A DNA stretch of 18,675 nucleotides from Dehalococcoidia bacterium UBA3254 (GTDB taxonomy: Bacteria > Chloroflexota > Dehalococcoidia > Dehalococcoidales > UBA3254), in assembly GCA_002362735.1 (NCBI GenBank), contig DEUU01000368.1, forward strand, positions 1 to 18,675. The letters run 5' to 3'. Position numbers and translations under genes: made by a program. Below are positions 6,855 through 17,331 of this stretch, in pieces (position 1 is the stretch's first letter; each line of letters opens with the position of its first letter). Under the pieces are notes generated by a model that was given only the letters and a program-made list of their open reading frames with translations, was not told the origin of the DNA and ran no database searches.

Positions 6855-8213
6855 ATGTCGGGGCTGTCTCTCGCCCATGATAAACCAGTAGCCCGGAAAA
6901 AATTTTTTTACGGCTGGGTGATTGTGGCCGTTTGCACCCTGATGCTGGTCATTACTTACGGTCTGATGTACAGCTACAGCGTCTTTTTTAAACCTCTGGC
7001 TGCGTATTTTAACTGGGACCGTGAGACGGTCTCCCTGGTCTACTCAGTTTCTCTGGTTTTCCGGGGAGCGATCTCAATCGCAACTGGCTGGGTGGCAGAT
7101 AAATATGGTCCGAGAAAAGTTATGGTCTTTTGCGGCTTCATGATCGGACTTGGATTTTTCCTCTCGGCGCATGTCCAGAATTTATGGCAGTTTTTCTTGA
7201 CCTATGCGGTTATTGAATCCATCGGTTTAAGCGGTGCCTTTGGCATCGGGACGGCGATGACCTCACGGTGGTTTACGAAAAACCGGGGTCTGGCTTTGGG
7301 GATCATCTCTTCGGGTGTCGGCCTGGGGACTCTTTTAATTGTGCCCGGGGCTGAGAGTCTGATAGAACTACTGAACTGGTCTCAAACTTTTATTATCTGT
7401 GGTGTGGTATCCGGGATAATTATTATGGTCTCTGCTCTCTTCTTAAAACCAGCGCCGGCAGGGACACTTCCCTCCATCTCTCTTCAAAAAAGGGAGAAAA
7501 GCCTGGAAAGCATCAGGTTTTCCTCACAGGTTAAGGCAGATAAAGTTAGAGATAATTCTTCCCGGTCTTCCCTGGCAGGAGGAGTAACAAGAAGTCAGGC
7601 CCAGCGGCCCGAGCAGGTGGAAAAGACTTTACTGCAGGCTATCCGAGATCCCAAGGTGATCGTTATGATGTCGATTTTTGCCTTTCTTATAGGATGTACT
7701 CAACTGGTAGTTGTTCATCTGGTCAACTACGCCACAGATATGGGTATAACTCCGCTGGTGGCAGCAACCTTTGTTAGTGTGATTGGAGTTGCCAGCATTG
7801 GCGGTCGGCTCATCATCGGGGCAGGTTCCGACAGAGTCGGACTAAATAATACGCTAATTACCTGCGTTTTACTGGTTATCGCCTCCATGGCCAGCCTGTT
7901 CTTTGTTAAGTCCCTTTGGTCATTTTATCTTTTCGGTGTAATTTTTGGGCTCGCTTACGGCGGTGAAGTACCCCAGATACCCCTGTTTGTAGGGAAATTC
8001 TGCGGGACGAAAGCTATGGCAACCGTGATGGGCCTGGCGCTGTTTGTCGGCAATATCGGAGGAGCTCTTGGACCCTGGATCGGCGGCAAAATATTCGATA
8101 TGACTTCAAATTACTACTGGGCGTTTGTTGCAGCTTTAATCGTCAGCATTCTGGCTTTAATCCTGACGCTGGTGTTAAATCGAATTATGAAAAAACAGCT
8201 CCTGAATCATTGA
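6855..8213 (+). CDS. MFS transporter, oxalate/formate antiporter (OFA) / monocarboxylate type
   Basis: The 452-residue protein has 12 predicted membrane helices in two halves joined by a polar loop (about residues 197-262) rich in Ser, Arg and Gln. The opening FFYGWVIVAVCTLMLVITYG and SYSVFFKPLAAYFNW is the hallmark of the OFA/MCT-like branch. Motif A is GWVADKYGPRKVM (78-90), and a second-half counterpart is GRLIIGAGSDRVG. Members exchange or import organic anions such as oxalate, formate, pyruvate or other monocarboxylates across the cytoplasmic membrane. The ATG at 6855 has GGGAG about 12 bases upstream, a long spacing. The gene is convergent with the QueG-like gene, 16 bases apart. Given the neighbouring decarboxylase and molybdoenzyme, an aromatic or small carboxylate substrate is plausible but not shown. 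Confidence 0.88.
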   Translation: MSGLSLAHDKPVARKKFFYGWVIVAVCTLMLVITYGLMYSYSVFFKPLAAYFNWDRETVSLVYSVSLVFRGAISIATGWVADKYGPRKVMVFCGFMIGLGFFLSAHVQNLWQFFLTYAVIESIGLSGAFGIGTAMTSRWFTKNRGLALGIISSGVGLGTLLIVPGAESLIELLNWSQTFIICGVVSGIIIMVSALFLKPAPAGTLPSISLQKREKSLESIRFSSQVKADKVRDNSSRSSLAGGVTRSQAQRPEQVEKTLLQAIRDPKVIVMMSIFAFLIGCTQLVVVHLVNYATDMGITPLVAATFVSVIGVASIGGRLIIGAGSDRVGLNNTLITCVLLVIASMASLFFVKSLWSFYLFGVIFGLAYGGEVPQIPLFVGKFCGTKAMATVMGLALFVGNIGGALGPWIGGKIFDMTSNYYWAFVAALIVSILALILTLVLNRIMKKQLLNH

Positions 8214-8229
8214 TCTATCTTTTTAACCA

Positions 8230-9141
8230 TCAGGATAGAGGAATGCAGTTCTCACAGGGGACATCGGTCTGACAGAAACCGCAGCCTAAAATATCCGTAT
8301 AAAGAAATCCGTTCACGGCTAACTGTCCGGACTTTTCGAGATTTTGTTTCATTGCCTTTAGATACAGCTCGCATTTGTTCTTATCGTGACCTTTTTCGCT
8401 GATAGCCTGGGCCGGGCAGCGTGAAATACATTTCCCGCAACCACCCTGGCGCAAGAAGAGACAGTTGGCACGATAATCGGAATAAGGTCTGGGAGTAATC
8501 GGCAATGCCAAATTAGTAACTACGCTGCCAAGACGGATCGCTATCCCTTTGGGCGTAATGAAACCGTCACTCAGACTGAAGGTACCGAGTCCGGCAGCAT
8601 AGCCAACATGGCGCTGAGACCAGCGGCAAGACTTACCGTTGGGTTCTTCGATCATGCTCCACCATTTAGCCAGATCTGGAGCTACCGCCAGATATCCCAT
8701 GCTCTCAAGTAAGCTTACCACGTATCTTTCAAGACGATAGTTAACTTCCTGCCCTTTTAATCGGGTATGGTTCCATCTTAACGAGCAGACAGTGGTTTCC
8801 TCTTTCATACTGAAGCGGGTTTTAGTCGTCGAGGGCAGTACCCAGGAGATTACGCTGATCCGGGAAAGGTCCTTTTTACCCAGACCTCCGGTTTTAAGAT
8901 ACATCTCCAGGACTTCACGGGGAGTCACGTGATATTCACCAATTACAGTCTTATATTCTTGAAAAAGAGGGTCATCACCGTTTGCACAAGCGACCAAGGG
9001 CTCATCCCAGATAGGCTCATCCGGAGAAAAATCAAAGCGATTATCGGGACTCCTGGCAATATAATCCCGGACGGCCTTCACGATAAATATTCCCGGATTG
9101 GTTTGAAATTGTTTTTGCTTCGAGGGAGTCAAGCAAATCAT
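8230..9141 (-). CDS. QueG-like / epoxyqueuosine reductase-related double [4Fe-4S] protein
   Basis: I place the start at the ATG at 9141 (303 residues). A TTG at 9168 would coincide with the predicted transcription start, and AAGAGG lies 11 bases before 9141. In 303-residue numbering the C-terminal half has C235-G-K-C238-I-S-R-C242-P with C227 and C257 nearby, and a second set C287, C290, C296, C299. Part of this recalls the GCxxCQxxCP motif of QueG and of the C-terminal part of reductive dehalogenases. The middle (RHVGYAAGLGTFSLSDGFITPKGIAIRLGSVVT) matches the conserved core of that group, where the cofactor pocket lies. There is no twin-arginine signal, so it should be cytosolic. The N-terminal 160 residues do not look like canonical QueG, so queuosine synthesis is doubtful. 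A B12-dependent or simple electron-transfer role is possible. Confidence 0.78.
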   Translation of the reverse strand: MICLTPSKQKQFQTNPGIFIVKAVRDYIARSPDNRFDFSPDEPIWDEPLVACANGDDPLFQEYKTVIGEYHVTPREVLEMYLKTGGLGKKDLSRISVISWVLPSTTKTRFSMKEETTVCSLRWNHTRLKGQEVNYRLERYVVSLLESMGYLAVAPDLAKWWSMIEEPNGKSCRWSQRHVGYAAGLGTFSLSDGFITPKGIAIRLGSVVTNLALPITPRPYSDYRANCLFLRQGGCGKCISRCPAQAISEKGHDKNKCELYLKAMKQNLEKSGQLAVNGFLYTDILGCGFCQTDVPCENCIPLS

Positions 9142-9173
9142 ATCTTTCTGTGCCTCTTTTCCTAACAATACCG

Positions 9174-9254: not shown

Positions 9255-10277
9255 TCAGTTTATTTTAAACAGCTTTTTAGCGGTCAGATGGTGAATTTTA
9301 TCCTTATCAGCATTCGAGACGGGAATCCGATTTATAAAATCTACCGCCTCCAAGGAGTTTTCGTATGGATAATCCGCTGCAAACATCATATGATCTGCCC
9401 CGAGCTCCATAAAGACACTCAAAAAGGCAGGTATAGAATACATTCCAGCATTATTGACATAAAAATTATTCCGGAGATATTCACTCGGTGCTTTCCGGAT
9501 ATCAGGGCGGACTTCTTCTCCCATCCAGGGCTTTTTAAAACTAAAATCAATGCGATAGATCCAGAAGACGAGTCCCTCTCCGAGATGCCCAAGAACGATC
9601 TTCAGCCGCGGATATCGATCAAAAAGTCCGCTGTAGATCAAACGCATGGCATGCAGGGAGACTTCGGCTCCAAAACCCCAGGGAGGGCCAGCCAGGGCAA
9701 ATCCGTAGTCGGAATATGGTTTGAGGCTGGAGGCGATGGGAGTGTTCGGATGAAGAAAGATCGGGACATCCAGCTTTTCAGCAACCTCGAATACCGGCCA
9801 GTATTTTTTATCATCCAGGTAACTATATCCGACATGAGAGTTGATTTTAGCTCCTCGGAGACCAAGTTTCAGGACCGCTCTTTCTAATTCACCGGCAGCT
9901 TCTTCCGGGCTCTGCACGGCGAGAGAAGCTAAACCGATAAAACGGTCAGGATGCCTGGATATTGCCGTGGACAAAGCCTCGTTAGTCCGGCGGGAGAAGT
10001 GCATACCGTCAGCAGAGTTGAACTGCTCACATCCGGGCGTAGACAAGCTTAAAACCTGTATATCAATACCCGACTGGTCCATATTTTTAAGTCTACCTTC
10101 GGCTAAGTCCAGAAGTTGATCTTCGATCTCCATTCCGTGGGGTTCCCAGATTTGTGATTCGTACCATAAGCGAACATAACCTTTATAGATTTCCTCCCGG
10201 GGTGTATCCTGGCGTGAGAACAAATAATCCTGATATTCCTTGGTATAAAAATGAGCTTCAGTATCAATCCTGGTCAT
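9255..10277 (-). CDS. Amidohydrolase_2 family metal-dependent decarboxylase/hydrolase, gamma-resorcylate decarboxylase-like
   Basis: I chose the ATG at 10277 (340 residues). It is preceded by GAGGGA at 4 bases, while the ATG four codons earlier (10289) has no such site. The protein is a complete TIM-barrel amidohydrolase of the ACMSD group. Metal-site residues appear in order: Glu7 and His9 in DTEAHF, His176 in IFLHPNTP, His231 in LGHLGEGL and Asp302 in AADYPYE. Characterised relatives include gamma-resorcylate (2,6-dihydroxybenzoate) decarboxylase, 5-carboxyvanillate decarboxylase and ACMSD, which remove CO2 non-oxidatively from aromatic or muconate-type acids. Others in the family are hydrolases, so the reaction is not proven. 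The ExH spacing and the HLGEG and DYPYE segments favour a decarboxylase. It has a strong promoter of its own and lies near a molybdenum hydroxylase-like pair. Confidence 0.85.
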   Translation of the reverse strand: MTRIDTEAHFYTKEYQDYLFSRQDTPREEIYKGYVRLWYESQIWEPHGMEIEDQLLDLAEGRLKNMDQSGIDIQVLSLSTPGCEQFNSADGMHFSRRTNEALSTAISRHPDRFIGLASLAVQSPEEAAGELERAVLKLGLRGAKINSHVGYSYLDDKKYWPVFEVAEKLDVPIFLHPNTPIASSLKPYSDYGFALAGPPWGFGAEVSLHAMRLIYSGLFDRYPRLKIVLGHLGEGLVFWIYRIDFSFKKPWMGEEVRPDIRKAPSEYLRNNFYVNNAGMYSIPAFLSVFMELGADHMMFAADYPYENSLEAVDFINRIPVSNADKDKIHHLTAKKLFKIN

Positions 10278-10309
10278 ATTTTCCCTCATAAATCAAAATT
10301 GAGGACTTA

Positions 10310-10338
10310 ATTCTGGCAAAGGGGCAGGGCTTTGTCAA
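10310..10338 (-). promoter_or_regulatory. Sigma70-type promoter of the amidohydrolase gene
   Basis: On the minus strand a perfect TTGACA (10338-10333) is followed after 17 bases by CAGAAT (10315-10310), four of six matches to TATAAT. Transcription would begin near 10303, about 26 bases before the chosen ATG. Confidence 0.55.
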
Positions 10339-10571
10339 GGTAAAAGTATTATTGTCTGTGGCCAAATCTTAGTATGTAGATGAGTATTTTACTATATTTT
10401 AGAAGGCTAAGTTGTTATTAATGTTGAGGGATGTGGATTGCTTTGCTCTGCTTGCAAAGGCAGAACGATGCTTCGTAAATATGGGCATAGAAGATGGCCT
10501 TGGTAACGATATTTGGATAGGCCTTTTACTGAAGCAAAGACAATTGCCGGAAGTTGAGCTAAAATATATGT

Positions 10572-11261
10572 ATGCTGCTGAACATCGTTGTAATCATCCT
10601 GGCGGCGATTGCCCCCTGTGCCTTCTGGCTCTGGATTATTTATAAAGGGGACAGATACAAACCGGAGCCGAAAAGGCTGGTCATCCGTACATTTATTTTA
10701 GGAATGGTTATCGCTATACCGGTGGCAATCATAGAGTCGGTACTATATCCCGGATCAGTATCCGGGAATTTGTCTGTGTCCACAGCGGCTTACGTCGCCT
10801 TTGTTGTAGCCGGGGTTACGGAGGAAGCCGGGAAATTTTCCGTAGTCAGATTCAGTGTCTATAATTCTCCACATTTTGAAGAACCAGCGGACGGGCTGAT
10901 TTATTCAGCAGCTTCAGCTCTGGGTTTTGCTTCTCTGGAAAACATCATCTACGTCGTTAGCTTTGGGTGGCAGGTACTTCTTGTAAGGGGTCTCTTTTCA
11001 AATTTGGCCCACGTCGTTTTTTCATCTCTCTGGGGATATCCGCTGGCTCTCACCAAACTGGGTATGTTGAAACATAAATCCTTAACCTATTTCGGGCTGG
11101 TAGCGGCAATGATTGCACACGGGATCTTCGATTTTCTCTTTTTCACCGGTACCGCTCTGACCTGGCTGGTAGTTCCGTTTTTCCTCGGGGGTGTAGCTCT
11201 GTTCGTGCTCATGATGATTCATGCTAACCGGCATTCGGTATATATCCAGCACAGAGTATAA
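10572..11261 (+). CDS. PrsW family intramembrane metalloprotease
   Basis: The 229-residue membrane protein has about seven or eight predicted helices. Catalytic-type motifs sit where PrsW/CPBP-related proteases have them: EEAGK with Glu84, Glu85 and Lys88, GFASLEN with Glu123, NLAHVVFSSLWG with His147, and MIAHGIFDF with His183. PrsW of Bacillus cleaves the anti-sigma factor RsiW at the membrane; many other members have unknown targets. No sigma/anti-sigma pair lies in this window, so no target can be named. The ATG at 10572 has only a weak upstream purine stretch. A frame from 10412 overlaps the beginning in another phase and is not accepted. An AT-rich weak hairpin (11271-11290) follows the stop. 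Confidence 0.9.
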   Translation: MLLNIVVIILAAIAPCAFWLWIIYKGDRYKPEPKRLVIRTFILGMVIAIPVAIIESVLYPGSVSGNLSVSTAAYVAFVVAGVTEEAGKFSVVRFSVYNSPHFEEPADGLIYSAASALGFASLENIIYVVSFGWQVLLVRGLFSNLAHVVFSSLWGYPLALTKLGMLKHKSLTYFGLVAAMIAHGIFDFLFFTGTALTWLVVPFFLGGVALFVLMMIHANRHSVYIQHRV

Positions 11262-11389
11262 CATATCCGCAACTATATATTTTTATAGTTTAAAATAGTC
11301 TGTTTTCTTAATATTTTCGTAATAGTTTAAGCTTAGAATATAAGTACAGCGTGGAGCAGCACGTTTATGGCAAGTTCTCTGCTACAGCG

Positions 11390-11419
11390 GGCTCCGGCCG
11401 GGCTTGATTCCCCGGAGCC
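11390..11419. repeat. GC-rich inverted repeat, possible structured RNA or terminator stem
   Basis: GGCTCCGG (11390-11397) and CCGGAGCC (11412-11419) form a perfect 8-bp stem around 14 bases. It stands out in an AT-rich intergenic stretch between the PrsW and DUF4342 genes, which converge. A second, imperfect stem precedes it (AGCAG near 11355, CTGCT near 11380). Read on the minus strand it follows the DUF4342 stop by about 60 bases and could act in termination, but no T run follows. No coding potential is supported here. Confidence 0.45.
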
Positions 11420-11476
11420 AGACCATTTCCAGTCAAAAGGTATACTTACAATTCAGCCAAAGGTCAGGAGAAGACA

Positions 11477-11740
11477 TCACTTCTTTTTTGGCTTCTCGAC
11501 TTTTTCTACTTCGACGATACACTCATTTACCAGGCTGCCGAAGGCCCGGATAGCTGCCAGTACGGGAGCTTCGATTAAATTAGCCGGAGAGGCCGGATCT
11601 TTCGTGGTTAACGGAATATCCAGAAGATGATTCTCTTCGCTTATCAGACAGACTTTCCTGGCATCACCCCTTCCTACCAGTTCACGGATCGCTTCAGCCA
11701 GCCGGTTTCCTTTAACGACCATCCTCTCCTTTTTTGCCAT
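11477..11740 (-). CDS. DUF4342 domain protein
   Basis: The 87-residue protein starts at the ATG at 11740, eight bases after AGAGG. A GTG at 11749 overlaps the ribosome site. Nearly the whole length matches the DUF4342 pattern: KGNRLAEAIRELVGRGDARK, a short strand pair (VCLISEENHLLDIPLT), then a hydrophobic segment with APVLAAIRAFGSLV and the ending ECIVEVEKVEKPKKK. Larger family members carry an N-terminal UBA-like domain, which is absent here. The function is unknown. The usual glycine-rich hydrophobic insert before APVLAA is replaced by KDPASPANLIE, so membrane association is not evident. It is divergent from the molybdoenzyme pair, with 276 bases between the two starts, and convergent with the protease gene. 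Confidence 0.8.
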   Translation of the reverse strand: MAKKERMVVKGNRLAEAIRELVGRGDARKVCLISEENHLLDIPLTTKDPASPANLIEAPVLAAIRAFGSLVNECIVEVEKVEKPKKK

Positions 11741-11918
11741 CGCTGCCACCTCTTAGATTAATTTAAAGAAAAATCTCAAAAAATATCGAAAGAAAATTTG
11801 TTAATTTGCTTTGGGATTTAAGATTTTTATCCTCTATCTATAGTATATCAAAGGGCTATTTATCCAACCGGAAGGTAGATGGCTGGCAAAAAATCCTGGT
11901 ATCAAATAAATAAACGTA

Positions 11919-11934
11919 TGTGATCAAAGTCACA
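11919..11934. promoter_or_regulatory. CRP/FNR-type palindromic site upstream of the molybdoenzyme promoter
   Basis: TGTGATCAAAGTCACA is TGTGA-N6-TCACA, a perfect match to the two half-sites bound by CRP and several other CRP/FNR-family regulators. It ends 6 bases before the -35 box and is centred about 49 bases before the expected transcription start, a place suited to activation. No regulator gene of this family lies in the window, so the cognate protein and signal are unknown. Confidence 0.6.
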
Positions 11935-11940
11935 AAATAT

Positions 11941-11969
11941 TTGAGTATCAGTTTATTATGCTATATAAT
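11941..11969 (+). promoter_or_regulatory. Sigma70-type promoter of the molybdoenzyme operon
   Basis: TTGAGT (11941-11946) and a perfect TATAAT (11964-11969) are separated by 17 bases. Transcription would begin near 11976, leaving a leader of about 40 bases with AAGGAGAGG in front of the ATG at 12017. Confidence 0.65.
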
Positions 11970-12016
11970 AAAGTCTAAAGTTAAAGAGATTGAATACCCT
12001 GAAAGGAGAGGAATGA

Positions 12017-14656
12017 ATGGCAGAGAAAAAAGGTGAACCCAAAGCCAGGGGAATTGCCCAGGTAGATAAAACGGTTCTGAAATCTACCGCCCTTGGCGGA
12101 ATGCATGGCGGCGGTGCACCAGTCTTTGTCGATGTCAAAGACGGAAAAGTCGTCCGCGTCAGACCCTTCCATTATGATTGGAAATATGACATGAAATCTT
12201 TCAACCCCTGGAAATTTGAGAGAGACGGTGTCAAACTCCAACCCCTTACCAAGACCTGCATCGGTCCTTACTCGCTGGCATATAAGAAGAGGACCTATTC
12301 CCCCAACCGCATCCAGTATCCTATGAAGAGGGTGGACTGGAATCCCAAAGGCGAGAGAAATACGGAGAACCGCGGCAAGAGCAAATTTGTCAGAATCTCC
12401 TGGGATGAAGCTTCCACAATCATCGCCGACGAAATTAAAAGAATCCATAAGAAATATGGACCCCTGGGTATCATGCTGCAAGGCGATGGTCATGGGGAAT
12501 GCAAGACGATCAACACGCCTCACGGCCAGTCAGGCCTACTGCTGGATAAAATCGGTGGTTTCACCCAGATGGTTCGAAACCCGGACAGCTGGGAAGGCTG
12601 GTACTTCGGTTCCAAGCATGTCTGGGGCCAGGGCATCGTCGGTATGATGCATCCGACGGATAACTCAATCAAAGATATTACAGAATATTCGGACATGGTA
12701 TTGTTCTGGGGCTGCGATCCCGAGACTACACCCTGGGGGTTTGTCGGTCAGTTCGCTTCACGTCTCTGTTACTTCTGGCGTGATTGCGGAATCAAGCAAG
12801 TCTATGTTTGCCCGGATTTAAACTACGGAGCAGCGGTCCATGCAGATAAATGGATTCCCATCCTGCCCAATACAGATGCGGCAATGCATCTGGCAATTAT
12901 TTATACCTGGATTAAAGAAGGGACCTATGACAAGAAATATGTAAAGAGCCACACGGTCGGTTTTGATAAGATCAAAGACTACGTCCTGGGCAACGATGAA
13001 GACGGTATCGTCAAGACCCCGGAATGGGCTTCCAAAAAATGCGGCGTTCCCGAATGGACGATCAAAGCTCTGGCCAGGGACTGGGCGAAGAAAACCGTTT
13101 CCATAGCTCACTACTTCGGCGGTTCTTATGTTAGAGGGCCTTACTCTCATGAGCCGGCCAGACTTGAATGCGTCCTTCTGGCGATGCAAGGCCTCGGCGG
13201 TCCGGGCAAGTGGCAGATCCAGATCACTTACGGCGGCATGCCCCGCGCAGAAGGCATTAAGACCACCCGTTTCTTCAACCCGGTACTCGGTGAACGTTTG
13301 ATCAAACCGACCCGGTCCACAGTGGCGGCCTGGGGTAAACAGCTAATCCCGAAAACCCTGGTTCATAAAGCCATCCAACTCGGTTCTCTTTCATATTATG
13401 GCAGCGGTGCTATCGAAGCTCCGGTAGAGGACCAGTTTAAGAAATATACTTATCCTATCGCTAAAGAAGACGGCGGTACCGAAATCCATATGCTCTGGTG
13501 TGATAATCCCTGCCGTACTACCTGCTGGAACTGCGGTAATGAGACGATCGAAGCTTACCGAAGTCCCAAGATCGAAACCATTGTCGTTCAGCACCCCTGG
13601 CTAGAAAATGATACACTCTATGCCGATATCATTTTACCGACCAATACCATGATGGAAGTCGACGATATCGTCACTCATACCCGGCAGGGTGTTCAATTCC
13701 AGCATATTGCTATCCAGAACAAGGCCATCGAACCCATCGGCGAATCCAAGAGCGACTTTGAAGCGGTCATGGAAGTGGCGAAAAAGATGGGTAAATATGA
13801 AGAGATTACCCAGGGTCAGACTCTTCAGGACCTCCAAAAACTGGTGTTCACCAACATGGGCACCGATAAATTCCTGAGCTGGGAAGATTTCAAAGACAAG
13901 CAGTATTTTGTGTTCCCGATTGCTAAGGACTGGGAAAAAGACATTGAAAAGTCCCTTTGGAGAAAGTTCTACGAGGACCCGGACAACAATCCCATACCCA
14001 CTCCTACGGGAAAGATGGAGTTGTATTCTGAAGCACTGGCTGAAGCTTTCCCCACCGATAAAGAAAGGCCGCCTTATCCACAGTGGGTGGAAAAGAGCGA
14101 AATGCATGATGAGAGAGTAAGCGGCAGCCGCGCCAAGATATTCCCGCTCTTGATCGTGGCCAACCATCCCAGGTGGAGGACTCACGCTCAGGGAGATGAT
14201 ATCCCCTGGACACGGGAAGCATTAACATGTAAAATTGAAGCCTGGGACGGTTACTGGTACGAGCCAGTCTGGGTTAATCCGAAAGATGCGGCTTCCAGAG
14301 GCATCAAGACCGGAGACATCGTCAAAGTCTTCAATGAGAGAGGAGTTGTCCTCGGTGGCGCCATAGTCTGGGAGAGGATTATGCCCGGTGTAACCTACAT
14401 GGATCATGGAGCTAGATGCGATTCAATCCTGGCTGGTAAGATAGATCGGGGCGGCGCAATAGACCTGATTTCCCCGGATTGGGTTATTTCCAAGAACTGC
14501 GTCGGTGAGGCCACCAGCGGTTTCCTGGTAGATGTACAAAAAGTGGCTCAGGCCGAGATGGAAGAGTGGAGAAAGCTCTATCCCGAAGCCTGGGAGAGAG
14601 AATACGACCCGGCTTCCGGTCTACGGTTCAATGCTTGGGTTGAAGGAGGAAAATAA
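12017..14656 (+). CDS. Molybdopterin enzyme large subunit, pyrogallol transhydroxylase / resorcinol hydroxylase-like
   Basis: The 879-residue protein is a complete DMSO-reductase-superfamily catalytic subunit that should bind Mo and two pyranopterin guanine dinucleotides. AAGGAGAGG (12003-12011) is 5 bases before the start. There is no twin-arginine signal, so it is cytosolic. The N-terminal segment (GGMHGGGAPVFVDVKDGKVVRV) sits where most relatives have a CxxCxxxC cluster site, but the first cysteine is Cys81, so no N-terminal [4Fe-4S] cluster is possible. This absence, the length (the Pelobacter acidigallici large subunit is about 875) and the motif Asp190-Ser191-Trp192 point to the transhydroxylase family, where a serine in an Asp-Ser-Trp triplet ligates Mo. 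The C-terminal domain (KIFPLLIVANHPRWRTHAQ, about 707-840) is the usual pterin-binding barrel. It is followed directly by its small-subunit gene. Pyrogallol hydroxyl transfer, resorcinol hydroxylation or a related ring reaction are all possible. Confidence 0.88.
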   Translation: MAEKKGEPKARGIAQVDKTVLKSTALGGMHGGGAPVFVDVKDGKVVRVRPFHYDWKYDMKSFNPWKFERDGVKLQPLTKTCIGPYSLAYKKRTYSPNRIQYPMKRVDWNPKGERNTENRGKSKFVRISWDEASTIIADEIKRIHKKYGPLGIMLQGDGHGECKTINTPHGQSGLLLDKIGGFTQMVRNPDSWEGWYFGSKHVWGQGIVGMMHPTDNSIKDITEYSDMVLFWGCDPETTPWGFVGQFASRLCYFWRDCGIKQVYVCPDLNYGAAVHADKWIPILPNTDAAMHLAIIYTWIKEGTYDKKYVKSHTVGFDKIKDYVLGNDEDGIVKTPEWASKKCGVPEWTIKALARDWAKKTVSIAHYFGGSYVRGPYSHEPARLECVLLAMQGLGGPGKWQIQITYGGMPRAEGIKTTRFFNPVLGERLIKPTRSTVAAWGKQLIPKTLVHKAIQLGSLSYYGSGAIEAPVEDQFKKYTYPIAKEDGGTEIHMLWCDNPCRTTCWNCGNETIEAYRSPKIETIVVQHPWLENDTLYADIILPTNTMMEVDDIVTHTRQGVQFQHIAIQNKAIEPIGESKSDFEAVMEVAKKMGKYEEITQGQTLQDLQKLVFTNMGTDKFLSWEDFKDKQYFVFPIAKDWEKDIEKSLWRKFYEDPDNNPIPTPTGKMELYSEALAEAFPTDKERPPYPQWVEKSEMHDERVSGSRAKIFPLLIVANHPRWRTHAQGDDIPWTREALTCKIEAWDGYWYEPVWVNPKDAASRGIKTGDIVKVFNERGVVLGGAIVWERIMPGVTYMDHGARCDSILAGKIDRGGAIDLISPDWVISKNCVGEATSGFLVDVQKVAQAEMEEWRKLYPEAWEREYDPASGLRFNAWVEGGK

Positions 14657-15472
14657 TTGAAAGTATTCGTTCATGACGTATCAATCTGTAATGGTTGTTA
14701 CAACTGCCAGATTGCCTGCAAGGATGAGCACGTTGCCAATGACTGGACTCCTTATGCCAAACCTGAACCCGAAATCGGACATTTCTGGCTGAAATTAACG
14801 GAGACCGTCAGAGGCCAGGTGCCCAGAGTGAAGGTAGCTTATTATCCAATCCTCTGCAACCATTGTGGTGACGCTCCCTGCATGGATGCCTGCAAAGTAG
14901 AAGGTGCGATCTATCGTCGGGAAGATGGTCTGGTAATCATCGACCCGGTTAAATGCACCGGCTGCAAACTTTGCGTAGATTCCTGTCCTTACGGCGTGAT
15001 CTACTTCAATGACGGCCTGAACATTGCTCAAAAATGTACCGGCTGCGCTCATCTGATCGATAGCGGTTGGAAAGAACCGAGATGCGTAGATGCTTGCCCG
15101 ACTCTGGCCCTTAAGTTCATGGAAGAATCTGAGGCTAAAGAATACATAGCGAAGGCAGAGTATACTAAACCAGAGCGCGTCGCTCATGATAAACCGCACG
15201 TCTATTATCTGGGCCTCCCCAAGAGATTTGTTGCCGGGACAGTCTACGATCCGGAGGAAAAAGAAGTCATCATCGGGGCTAACGTTTCTCTGGTCGAGAG
15301 CGGAAACAGTAAAAAGACCTATTCCGCGAAGACAGACAGTTACGGCGACTTCGAGTTTGAAAAGCTCCCCGTAGGCAAGTTTACTCTAACGATTGAAAAA
15401 GGGAAGAAATCCAAGACTATTAAAGTCAGTACTGAAAAAGATGTCAGTCTGGGCGATATTCCCTTAACCTAG
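14657..15472 (+). CDS. Iron-sulfur small subunit of the transhydroxylase-like molybdoenzyme, with C-terminal beta domain
   Basis: The 271-residue partner starts with TTG right after the large-subunit stop, with AAGGAGGA (14643-14650) inside the end of the preceding gene, so translation is coupled. Residues 1-150 form a DmsB-like ferredoxin with 16 cysteines in four groups: C11, C14, C17, C21; C67, C70, C75, C79; C100, C103, C106, C110; C127, C130, C143, C147. This predicts four [4Fe-4S] clusters. Residues about 195-271, from RFVAGTVYDPEEKEV to VSLGDIPLT, form a carboxypeptidase-regulatory/transthyretin-like beta domain (SYGDFEFEKLPVGKFTLTIE). The Pelobacter transhydroxylase small subunit (about 274 residues) has the same extra domain, which is a strong family marker. 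As I recall, that protein has only three clusters, so the fourth tetrad here is notable. A strong terminator follows. Confidence 0.9.
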   Translation: MKVFVHDVSICNGCYNCQIACKDEHVANDWTPYAKPEPEIGHFWLKLTETVRGQVPRVKVAYYPILCNHCGDAPCMDACKVEGAIYRREDGLVIIDPVKCTGCKLCVDSCPYGVIYFNDGLNIAQKCTGCAHLIDSGWKEPRCVDACPTLALKFMEESEAKEYIAKAEYTKPERVAHDKPHVYYLGLPKRFVAGTVYDPEEKEVIIGANVSLVESGNSKKTYSAKTDSYGDFEFEKLPVGKFTLTIEKGKKSKTIKVSTEKDVSLGDIPLT

Positions 15473-15489: not shown

Positions 15490-15524
15490 AAATAAGGCGA
15501 GGATTCAATATCCTCGCCTTATTT
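15490..15524 (+). terminator. Rho-independent terminator of the molybdoenzyme operon
   Basis: A perfect 15-bp stem (15490-15504 with 15510-15524) around the 5-base loop TCAAT contains the GC-rich core GGCGAGGAT / ATCCTCGCC. It begins 18 bases after the small-subunit stop. The A-rich left side and T-rich right side allow it to act in either direction. Confidence 0.85.
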
Positions 15525-15690: not shown

Positions 15691-17331
15691 TTGTCTAACT
15701 ACGATGTCATCTTAATTCATCCTCCGGCGATTTTCGATTTCCGCAAGAAGACCATCTTCCCGGGACCTCTCGGCGTTTCAGTCGAATCCGTCCAGTATAC
15801 AAAGGTACCGATCGGGATGTTGAGCCTGGCGGAATACCTGGACAGGCACGGTTACACAGTCACGATCGATAATTTGGGTGACCGGATGGTTGCGGATCCT
15901 TCTTTTGATACTGAACAGCATTTAAAAAAGATATCTGCCCGAATATTTGCCGTTGGCCTCCACTTTCAGCAGCATGCTCCCGGAGCGATGGAGGTCGCCC
16001 GGCTATGTAAAAAATATCATCCGGACTCACAGGTGGTTATGGGAGGGTTGACGGCAACCCGTTTTCACGATGAGATTATAAGCAAATATGAGTTTGTGGA
16101 CGCCGTCATCCGGGGTGAGGCGGAAAAAGCTTTTCTGGAGTATCTCAGAGCATCAGAGAAATCCGGGAAAATCTCAGAAACTCATAATTTGACTTATCGT
16201 AAAGAGGACGGGGAGATTACCATTACCCCTCTGTTACCCCCTAGTTTAAACCTGGATGAATTTAATTACACTCGCTTCGACCTTCTGGAACCGAAAACCT
16301 CGATATTTGCTCCGGACTTGATGCCCCGGTGGAGTTTGGAGGTCTGTCGCGGTTGCGCTTATAACTGCGCTATTTGCGGAGGGTCAGCCTATACCTACAA
16401 GACTTACCTGGGCATGGATAAACCTGCCTTTAGAAGTGCTGGAAAAATCGTCGAAGATATTAAAAACCTCGGTGCTCAGGGGGTCCGGTCGGTAGGACTT
16501 TATCAGGATCCGCGCATGGGTGGAGAAAAATACTGGCGGGAATTGTTGCAGGCTTTACGTCTGGAGAAGACAAATATCGAGCGGTTGTCTCTGGACCTTC
16601 TCATACCTTCCGGGGAAGAGTTCATTAAAGCGGTTGCGGAGACAGAAATACCGGTGACCATTCATATTTGCCCGGATACCGGTTGCGATGCTGTGCGTAA
16701 AATGCTTGGCAGGCATTATTCGACCGCAGATTTGCTTGATACGGTGAAGCTGTGTCACAAGTATCTGATACCGGTTACATCATTCTTTTCTGTGGGACTG
16801 GCGGGAGAAAACCGGGAAAATATAAATGATACTTTGGAACTGTGGGATAAACTCTCCGAATTAGAACAAATTGCTCAAACGAAAGGTCGTTATTTTGGAA
16901 TTGGAACTGGCGTACCTTTAGGAGGACCGATCACGGGTCCCATTCTCCTTGATCCCGGGTCTCTGGCGTTCGACTTTCCAGAAAAATATGGTTACAAGCT
17001 TCTTTATCGGAACCTCGAGGAGTATATCCGGGCTCTATCCGGACCTTCCTGGCATCAGTGGATAAATTATGAAACCGACCTCATGAAAAAGGAACCTCTA
17101 ATAGAACTTATTCTCGAAACCACCTCATTCGCTATCGATCAGAGAGAGGCATACGGTTTTCAGACCCGTACCCAGTCTGCAGCGGAGCGTTTAAGATTGA
17201 AAGCAGATATCATCGCGGTAAATGAAGTGGAGCGAATCTCAAGGCTGACAGACAAAAACGAAGTCGAATCAAGACTTAAGGCGTTGAAGACCAGCTATGA
17301 CTCCTTCCTTAACCGTAATCCGAACAATTAG
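15691..17331 (+). CDS. B12-binding domain / radical SAM protein (resembles the Ta0216-type family)
   Basis: The 546-residue protein has an N-terminal Rossmann-like cobalamin-binding-type domain (about 1-155: DVILIHPPAI, GYTVTIDNLGDR, VVMGGLTATRFHDEI, VIRGEAEKAF) and a radical SAM barrel with CxxxCxxC at Cys222, Cys226 and Cys229, extended upstream by Cys219. Glycine-rich segments (RSVGLYQDP, SFFSVGLAGENREN) follow at the places of later barrel strands. Overall it resembles the B12-binding radical SAM group typified by Thermoplasma Ta0216, whose reaction is not known. Class B methylation or C-C chemistry is the general expectation. The frame is closed by TAA at 15682, so the TTG at 15691 is the only upstream start possible. 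The ribosome site is weak (GGA 11 bases upstream). It follows the repeat element and is separated from the molybdoenzyme operon by a terminator. Confidence 0.87.
   Translation: MSNYDVILIHPPAIFDFRKKTIFPGPLGVSVESVQYTKVPIGMLSLAEYLDRHGYTVTIDNLGDRMVADPSFDTEQHLKKISARIFAVGLHFQQHAPGAMEVARLCKKYHPDSQVVMGGLTATRFHDEIISKYEFVDAVIRGEAEKAFLEYLRASEKSGKISETHNLTYRKEDGEITITPLLPPSLNLDEFNYTRFDLLEPKTSIFAPDLMPRWSLEVCRGCAYNCAICGGSAYTYKTYLGMDKPAFRSAGKIVEDIKNLGAQGVRSVGLYQDPRMGGEKYWRELLQALRLEKTNIERLSLDLLIPSGEEFIKAVAETEIPVTIHICPDTGCDAVRKMLGRHYSTADLLDTVKLCHKYLIPVTSFFSVGLAGENRENINDTLELWDKLSELEQIAQTKGRYFGIGTGVPLGGPITGPILLDPGSLAFDFPEKYGYKLLYRNLEEYIRALSGPSWHQWINYETDLMKKEPLIELILETTSFAIDQREAYGFQTRTQSAAERLRLKADIIAVNEVERISRLTDKNEVESRLKALKTSYDSFLNRNPNN

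Follow-up and report, generated by a model that had tools for sequence, protein, structure and literature searches.

The closest structurally solved relative of the enzyme considered here is the pyrogallol-phloroglucinol transhydroxylase AthLS of Pelobacter acidigallici (PDB ID: 4v4c), a two-subunit enzyme in which the large subunit begins with a PF21423 domain and has no N-terminal cluster and the small subunit ends in a beta domain. The wider class of small subunits is represented by DmsB and the PsrB-type protein 2vpw_B, which have four cysteine tetrads but, at 195-205 residues, are too short for a C-terminal beta domain and have other large-subunit partners. In this class, a cross-pairing rule assigns the tetrad cysteines to clusters, and the cluster known as FS4 is the one nearest the electron partner, at the exit end of the wire, in DmsABC, NarGHI and PsrABC. 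The resorcinol hydroxylase RhLS of Azoarcus anaerobius is likened to the present enzyme by family description only, not by sequence: the passages on this family in PMC10100899 count RhL and PgtL among the Ser-coordinating enzymes and describe RhLS as carrying out a net hydroxylation in anaerobic respiration. Neither RhL nor RhS was found among the plasmid matches searched. According to PMC7028382 and PMC11887054, catechol dehydroxylases (Dadh, Dodh and kin) are anaerobic Mo enzymes that act on phenols, a genome often encoding many paralogues; the Dodh type is considered a soluble complex of two subunits, and the group is placed beside acetylene hydratase, away from the pyrogallol enzyme. In sediment Chloroflexi, pyrogallol hydroxytransferase genes have been taken to indicate pyrogallol fermentation (PMC3971608) and the transhydroxylation or hydroxylation of aromatics (PMC4959651).

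The window, meaning the whole analyzed stretch of 18,675 nucleotides from Dehalococcoidia bacterium UBA3254 (contig DEUU01000368.1), carries a tight two-gene unit of this family on the + strand. The first gene encodes an AthL-like bis-MGD-type molybdopterin oxidoreductase of 879 residues (large subunit, 12017..14656; PF21423, PF00384 and PF01568), and the TTG start of the second lies at the base right after its stop. The second encodes a small subunit of 271 residues (14657..15472), in which a ferredoxin-like part with 16 cysteines is followed by a transthyretin-like beta domain (about residues 190-271; 15224..15469, +). We put at roughly 0.5 the probability that this pair is a cytoplasmic, four-cluster redox enzyme with a Ser-coordinated Mo (or W) bis-MGD site, which forms its own clade beside the transhydroxylases and would add or remove a hydroxyl group on a substrate other than pyrogallol. 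No twin-arginine motif was seen at the large-subunit start and no Fe-S motif at its N-terminus; the window enzyme is most likely cytoplasmic. Beyond the small-subunit stop lies a hairpin of 15 pairs with a loop of 5 (15490..15524; −23.4 kcal/mol, z −6.05), which probably ends the two-gene transcript; it was called terminator-like on the − strand, and such sites number 7 against 5.1 expected. Upstream of the large gene are promoter-like hexamers (11941-11969, +; 7 such sites found against 5.8 expected) and an exact TGTGA-N6-TCACA palindrome (11919-11934, +), which we take to resemble a CRP/FNR-type regulator site. At up to one mismatch this palindrome is found once, with 0.41 expected, and it is present in 72 of 200 shuffles. 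Its candidacy as a conserved regulator site was rejected, as it is absent upstream of the relatives tested (1 mismatch in L090, 2-5 in the others).

AthL (4v4c_A) is the best solved relative of the large subunit by sequence (396 bits; next 235) and ranks first in a Foldseek search with the predicted model (TM 0.81), a model with a mean pLDDT of 75 and values below 50 in active-site loops 158-162 and 189-214. His159 (12491..12493, +) aligns with AthL His144, which has a catalytic role, and does not vary among the 44 window-type sequences in alignment A2. Likewise, Asp190-Ser191-Trp192 (12584..12592, +) aligns with AthL Asp174-Ser175-Trp176, in which Ser175 is the Mo ligand and Ser191 its counterpart in the window. 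The two proteins differ at AthL Tyr152, Tyr404 and Tyr560, to which the 2004 AthL crystal paper reportedly assigns roles in the pocket. Tyr152 gives way to Thr in the window and has no Tyr counterpart in any window-type row aligned, Tyr404 meets a gap in the window and a gap or another letter across the window-type rows, and Tyr560, also a gap in the window, is absent in all of those aligned. All three tyrosines are present in 18 of 20 AthL-type rows, AthL counted (two in L090, one in L081); their sources are Dehalococcoidia and the plasmids of Ensifer, Cupriavidus, Burkholderia, Paraburkholderia and Salipiger. Across the wider window clade the His/Asp pair is not universal, because Asp174 is replaced in four of six exported relatives and in L124; Ser175 is Thr in L071. 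In a third type of large subunit, A3 (L086, L089 and L127, the last at 9932-12505), Tyr404 and Tyr560 are present, position 152 is Gly, position 174 is Ser or Cys, and FS4 is retained alongside the two tyrosines. Membership in the catechol dehydroxylases, which according to PMC7028382 lie closest to acetylene hydratase, was also considered and was rejected: acetylene hydratase matches the large subunit at 67 bits, compared with 396 for AthL.

The small subunit contains exactly 16 cysteines, and all four of the tetrads in which they lie align with those of E. coli DmsB. These are tetrad I (Cys11-14-17-21, 14687..14719), tetrad II (Cys67-70-75-79, 14855..14893), tetrad III (Cys100-103-106-110, 14954..14986) and tetrad IV (Cys127-130-143-147, 15035..15097), each on the + strand. 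AthS, the best PDB match, has cysteine at 12 of the 16 aligned sites: counterparts of Cys79 and of Cys100, Cys103 and Cys106 are missing, and Cys110 is retained. By the cross-pairing rule, we take the four missing residues to be the ligands of one cluster, FS4. The first-pass annotation had described an AthLS-like build (no large-subunit cluster, Asp-Ser-Trp, C-terminal beta domain), 16 cysteines in four tetrads and one cluster fewer in AthS; alignments and domain matches confirm all of this, and the shortfall in AthS proves to be clade-wide. What does not hold is its treatment of the fourth cluster as a distinguishing extra. Because four clusters are the normal state of this small-subunit class, 16 cysteines alone are unremarkable, and AthS would be the derived exception.

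The tetrads shared with DmsB also bear on the alternative that the pair reduces S- or N-oxides (or another oxyanion) as a cytoplasmic DMSO/TMAO-reductase-like enzyme with four clusters, as in DmsAB. Database names agree with it in part, since among the matches listed the large-subunit relatives that carry a protein name are often called S/N-oxide or TMAO reductase, and the large subunit is matched by the NCBIfam models dmsA_ynfE (331 bits) and bisC_fam (310 bits). Both scores fall far short of the curated cut-offs, 778 and 1018 bits respectively, however, and AthL is closest by both sequence and predicted fold. The active site also departs from these reductases: TorA has Trp where the window has His and Tyr-Ser-Thr in place of Asp-Ser-Trp, and DmsA has Tyr-Ser-Ser. 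We regard oxide reduction as unlikely; it is the most probable of the alternatives.

To define the cysteine pattern across the family, 241 small subunits were aligned, comprising the window with its best 120 matches and AthS with its next 119; the homologue sets were the best 120 of 7169, the best 120 of 6048 and the best 120 of 3901. In 120 of the 121 window-type sequences all 16 cysteines are present, and the remaining one has Gln at Cys103. Not one of the four FS4 cysteines occurs in any AthS-type row (0/120), and a few of these rows vary elsewhere too, with Asp at Cys21 in 8. Complete window-type small subunits in the genome loci likewise have 16 cysteines, or 15 with Cys103 replaced by Asn (L033), Gln (L012), Ala (L042 and L043) or His (L014 and L036). 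Cys103 is thus the sole cysteine substituted among the window-type rows seen. In PDB alignments, the same position is Ala in the perchlorate reductase subunit PcrB and His in the ethylbenzene dehydrogenase subunit EbdB, and the FS4 of these two enzymes is a working [3Fe-4S] cluster. Because the replacements sit only at the site for which other enzymes have a known [3Fe-4S] form, the pattern looks like that of a cluster in use rather than one in decay.

This conservation weighs against a redox-neutral transfer of hydroxyl groups between other phenols, in which the fourth cluster would simply not yet have been lost. Such a transfer would suit the His, Asp and Ser shared with AthL, the three clusters that AthLS itself retains, and the adjacency of window-type and AthL-type large genes described below. 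With all 16 cysteines in 120 of 121 sequences, variation confined to Cys103, unlike decay, and different pocket residues, we regard it as rather improbable.

Further cysteine losses are found in five plasmid-type relatives, in which Cys21, Cys127 and Cys130 are gone as well, and Cys143 too in L050; this type appears to keep two clusters. The plasmid relatives were 5 of 8 matches with more than 36% identity to AthS (H1, H2, H5, H7 and H8). The plasmid-borne AthLS relatives (L047, L048, L049, L050 and L051) have Ensifer, Cupriavidus, Burkholderia, Salipiger and Paraburkholderia as hosts, and VOC-family and fumarylacetoacetate-hydrolase genes lie near them in the four annotated stretches.

Trees of both subunits separate the window from AthLS. 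The large-subunit tree (59 rows, quick IQ-TREE, two TorA sequences as outgroup) left out 13 of 20 aligned database proteins, the duplicate stretch L078 and genes below 800 residues. It groups AthL together with every three- and two-cluster partner (support 97), and recovers a window group (100) and L086/L089 (100); its long branches belong chiefly to the exported group and to L086/L089, beside the outgroup. The small-subunit tree (62 rows) was built by a careful method with all 16 cysteine columns removed, and left out the L024 fragment, two L036 rows and L032, three duplicate ORFs having been dropped earlier. In it the window group forms a clade (100/95), AthS joins the plasmid type (100/99) and seven 16-cysteine relatives make up the outgroup (98/98), with no supported deeper order for the other three-cluster rows or the 16-cysteine row L020. 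A tree uniting the window, P0121 and AthL was rejected (p-AU 5e-5). Because the outgroup and two of the three large-subunit clades have FS4, four clusters are probably ancestral, so that AthS-type subunits would have lost one and the window gained none. An independent-pairs test of FS4 against the pocket residues yielded one pair, with the pocket mostly alike, and no support for correlation; the differences in FS4 and in the pocket go back to a single evolutionary split and are not a repeated correlation.

The pairing of large and small genes was compared across 81 stretches, 80 from Dehalococcoidia, the class of L001, plus the window, with 93 large-subunit and 54 small-subunit ORFs. Large genes were sorted into window-type (W), AthL-type (A) and A3; nine other large-subunit ORFs are fragments or fall outside the family by alignment columns. 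Wherever a small gene lies directly downstream, its type follows that of the large gene: W genes have a four-cluster mate in 25 of 25 cases (21 with all FS4 cysteines, four without Cys103), A genes a three-cluster mate in 13 of 13 and A3 genes a four-cluster mate in 3 of 3, and the intermediate L081 has a three-cluster mate. Strict as it is, this pairing traces back to the same single split in the tree. A further 21 W genes have no adjacent small gene though the sequence continues, and seven more stand at contig ends; the corresponding numbers for A genes are eight and six. Within the window's own subgroup, marked by His-Thr-Asp-Ser-Trp, 14 of 16 genes (window included) have a four-cluster mate; a fifteenth stands at a contig end, and in the last, L106, another large-like ORF intervenes. 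At L052 (G323:C200), what comes before the four-cluster small gene is three short ORFs and no full-length large ORF.

Six contigs from five genomes (L068, L072, L074, L078, L101 and L113) have W and A genes side by side, and a W gene accompanies an A3 gene on L127. In four loci a lone W gene is followed on its own strand by an A gene, after about 20 bases in L068, L078 and L101 and about 110 bases in L113, an arrangement resembling a single operon. Next after the pair comes a three-cluster small gene in L068 and L078; the contigs of L101 and L113 end first. The W genes beside A genes all come from subgroups about 50-56% identical to the window, and none from the window's subgroup. This adjacency would tie W proteins to A-type chemistry, and some may work without a four-cluster mate.

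Because 21 W genes stand without an adjacent small gene, the chemistry of the W clade may not always depend on a four-cluster wire. The same genes are what favors a non-redox enzyme of the hydratase type, with clusters of structural use; acetylene hydratase demonstrates that non-redox chemistry is possible in this superfamily. A four-cluster gene directly downstream in 14 of 16 members of the window subgroup and the weak acetylene hydratase match (67 bits) make this reading very unlikely for the window. Least probable of all, to the point of being hardly credible, is a true pyrogallol-phloroglucinol transhydroxylase: AthLS is the closest solved relative, one close relative among the matches listed (P0182) is named pyrogallol hydroxytransferase and related Chloroflexi genes are so named in PMC3971608 and PMC4959651, yet the window lies outside the AthL clade, lacks Tyr152, Tyr404 and Tyr560, and has W-gene counterparts in genomes (G001, G395, G408 and G410) that hold a separate AthL-pocket gene with a three-cluster small subunit.

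A net-redox role is the better reading of the window pair than hydroxyl transfer. The first-pass annotation had argued for such an enzyme from the fourth cluster; the pair's separate clade in both trees, its altered pocket tyrosines and the position of FS4 at the exit end of the wire in known enzymes favor that view. As a strict rule linking the fourth cluster to redox chemistry, the argument is opposed by the 21 lone W genes.

An exported sister group of six loci (L067, L070, L071 and L076 in G230; L073 and L075 in G302), from two genomes only, bears on the route of the electrons. The large proteins start with a twin-arginine and lipobox-like stretch, and the small mates have 16 cysteines. 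In five of the six loci (L070, L071, L073, L075 and L076) the small gene is followed by one for a hydrophobic protein of about 190 residues, the L067 contig ending at this point. This is probably a multi-pass membrane protein and a possible new membrane anchor; neither of the two copies scanned matches a Pfam model above its cut-off, and the protein would suit a wire that reaches a membrane partner in the exported group. Upstream lie genes of a response-regulator cluster in all six loci (one member scanned, from L083) and, in three of them, those of a Reg_prop histidine kinase cluster (one member scanned). Within the window, no electron partner was recognised beside the pair. A built-in partner was considered in cluster c6, a flavin-type pyridine nucleotide oxidoreductase with a rhodanese domain, and was rejected, as c6 is absent from the window; it lies near seven related loci (L053, L056, L058, L061, L064, L066 and L069; the L066 member was scanned), several of which share other genes too.

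Other genes in the window offer a hint of the substrate. An amidohydrolase-fold protein encoded 1.7 kb from the enzyme pair on the opposite strand (9255-10289, −) has gamma-resorcylate decarboxylase (E 8e-66) and 5-carboxyvanillate decarboxylase as its best matches, and an MFS carrier is encoded at 6855-8213. Together, the decarboxylase-like neighbor and the carrier do no more than hint at phenolic acids, and the W-A gene neighbors with the gamma-resorcylate-decarboxylase-like gene hint at a phenolic substrate. Relatives of the decarboxylase-like protein (E 1e-50) are found in 8 of 151 genomes of the order, only three of which also belong to the 25 that have a relative of the large subunit. 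G001 encodes a 74% identical relative of this protein, a possible supplier of phenols. In addition, the window encodes a B12-binding radical SAM protein (15691-17331; TIGR04190, below cut-off), likewise found near four-cluster pairs in L070 and L076, and a 312-residue protein (8230-9168, −) that ends in a ferredoxin stretch and weakly matches reductive dehalogenase/QueG, for which there is no PDB match at E 0.001.

The few close relatives of the enzyme with a taxon name are, among the matches listed, mostly from Dehalococcoidales or Chloroflexota, with one from Thermoleophilia; small-subunit relatives with a protein name are often called tetrathionate reductase subunit B. Small-subunit relatives at E 1e-40 occur in 5 of 294 genomes of the class, in 22 of 151 genomes of one order, and in 2 of 400 genomes of the phylum, both in that same order; large-subunit relatives at E 1e-60 occur in at least 25 of the 151. 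As at most 8, 16, 6 and 6 candidates per genome were scored in the four genome scans, gene counts are lower bounds.

For the four-cluster redox enzyme proposed here, the following course can be envisaged. The Mo/W-Ser site would carry out a net two-electron hydroxylation or dehydroxylation of a substrate that is not pyrogallol and may be phenolic, the acid-base pair being supplied by the conserved His and Asp. Electrons would pass along Mo-FS1-FS2-FS3-FS4 to or from a soluble partner. Transhydroxylases, on the sister branch, may have shed the exit cluster once hydroxyl transfer needed no net electron export. The ligand residues, the clades and the gene pairing come directly from the sequences; the cluster types, reaction direction, substrate class and electron partner are what we infer from these comparisons.

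More tentatively, and with a probability that we consider rather low, the large AthL-like clade of Dehalococcoidia, cytoplasmic and exported (as a Tat-lipoprotein with a membrane partner), might be a new enzyme family, made up of anaerobic redox hydroxylases or dehydroxylases and expanded to several paralogues per genome, as in the reductive dehalogenases and catechol dehydroxylases. The transhydroxylases would then be a sister branch that lacks the exit cluster, and some proteobacterial plasmid relatives would lack a second one. In the literature covered, mostly open access and including passages of PMC3971608 and PMC4959651, no paper was found that separates the four-cluster clade from the transhydroxylases.

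Judged by sequence, the AthL-like family holds at least two kinds of enzyme, which differ in four cysteines and in three tyrosines of the pocket. Only one of these kinds looks like a transhydroxylase, so inferences of pyrogallol metabolism from genomes need a gene-by-gene check. Finally, the series of four-, three- and two-cluster enzymes bears, as a natural experiment, on the question of which clusters can be lost from a redox-neutral Mo enzyme.
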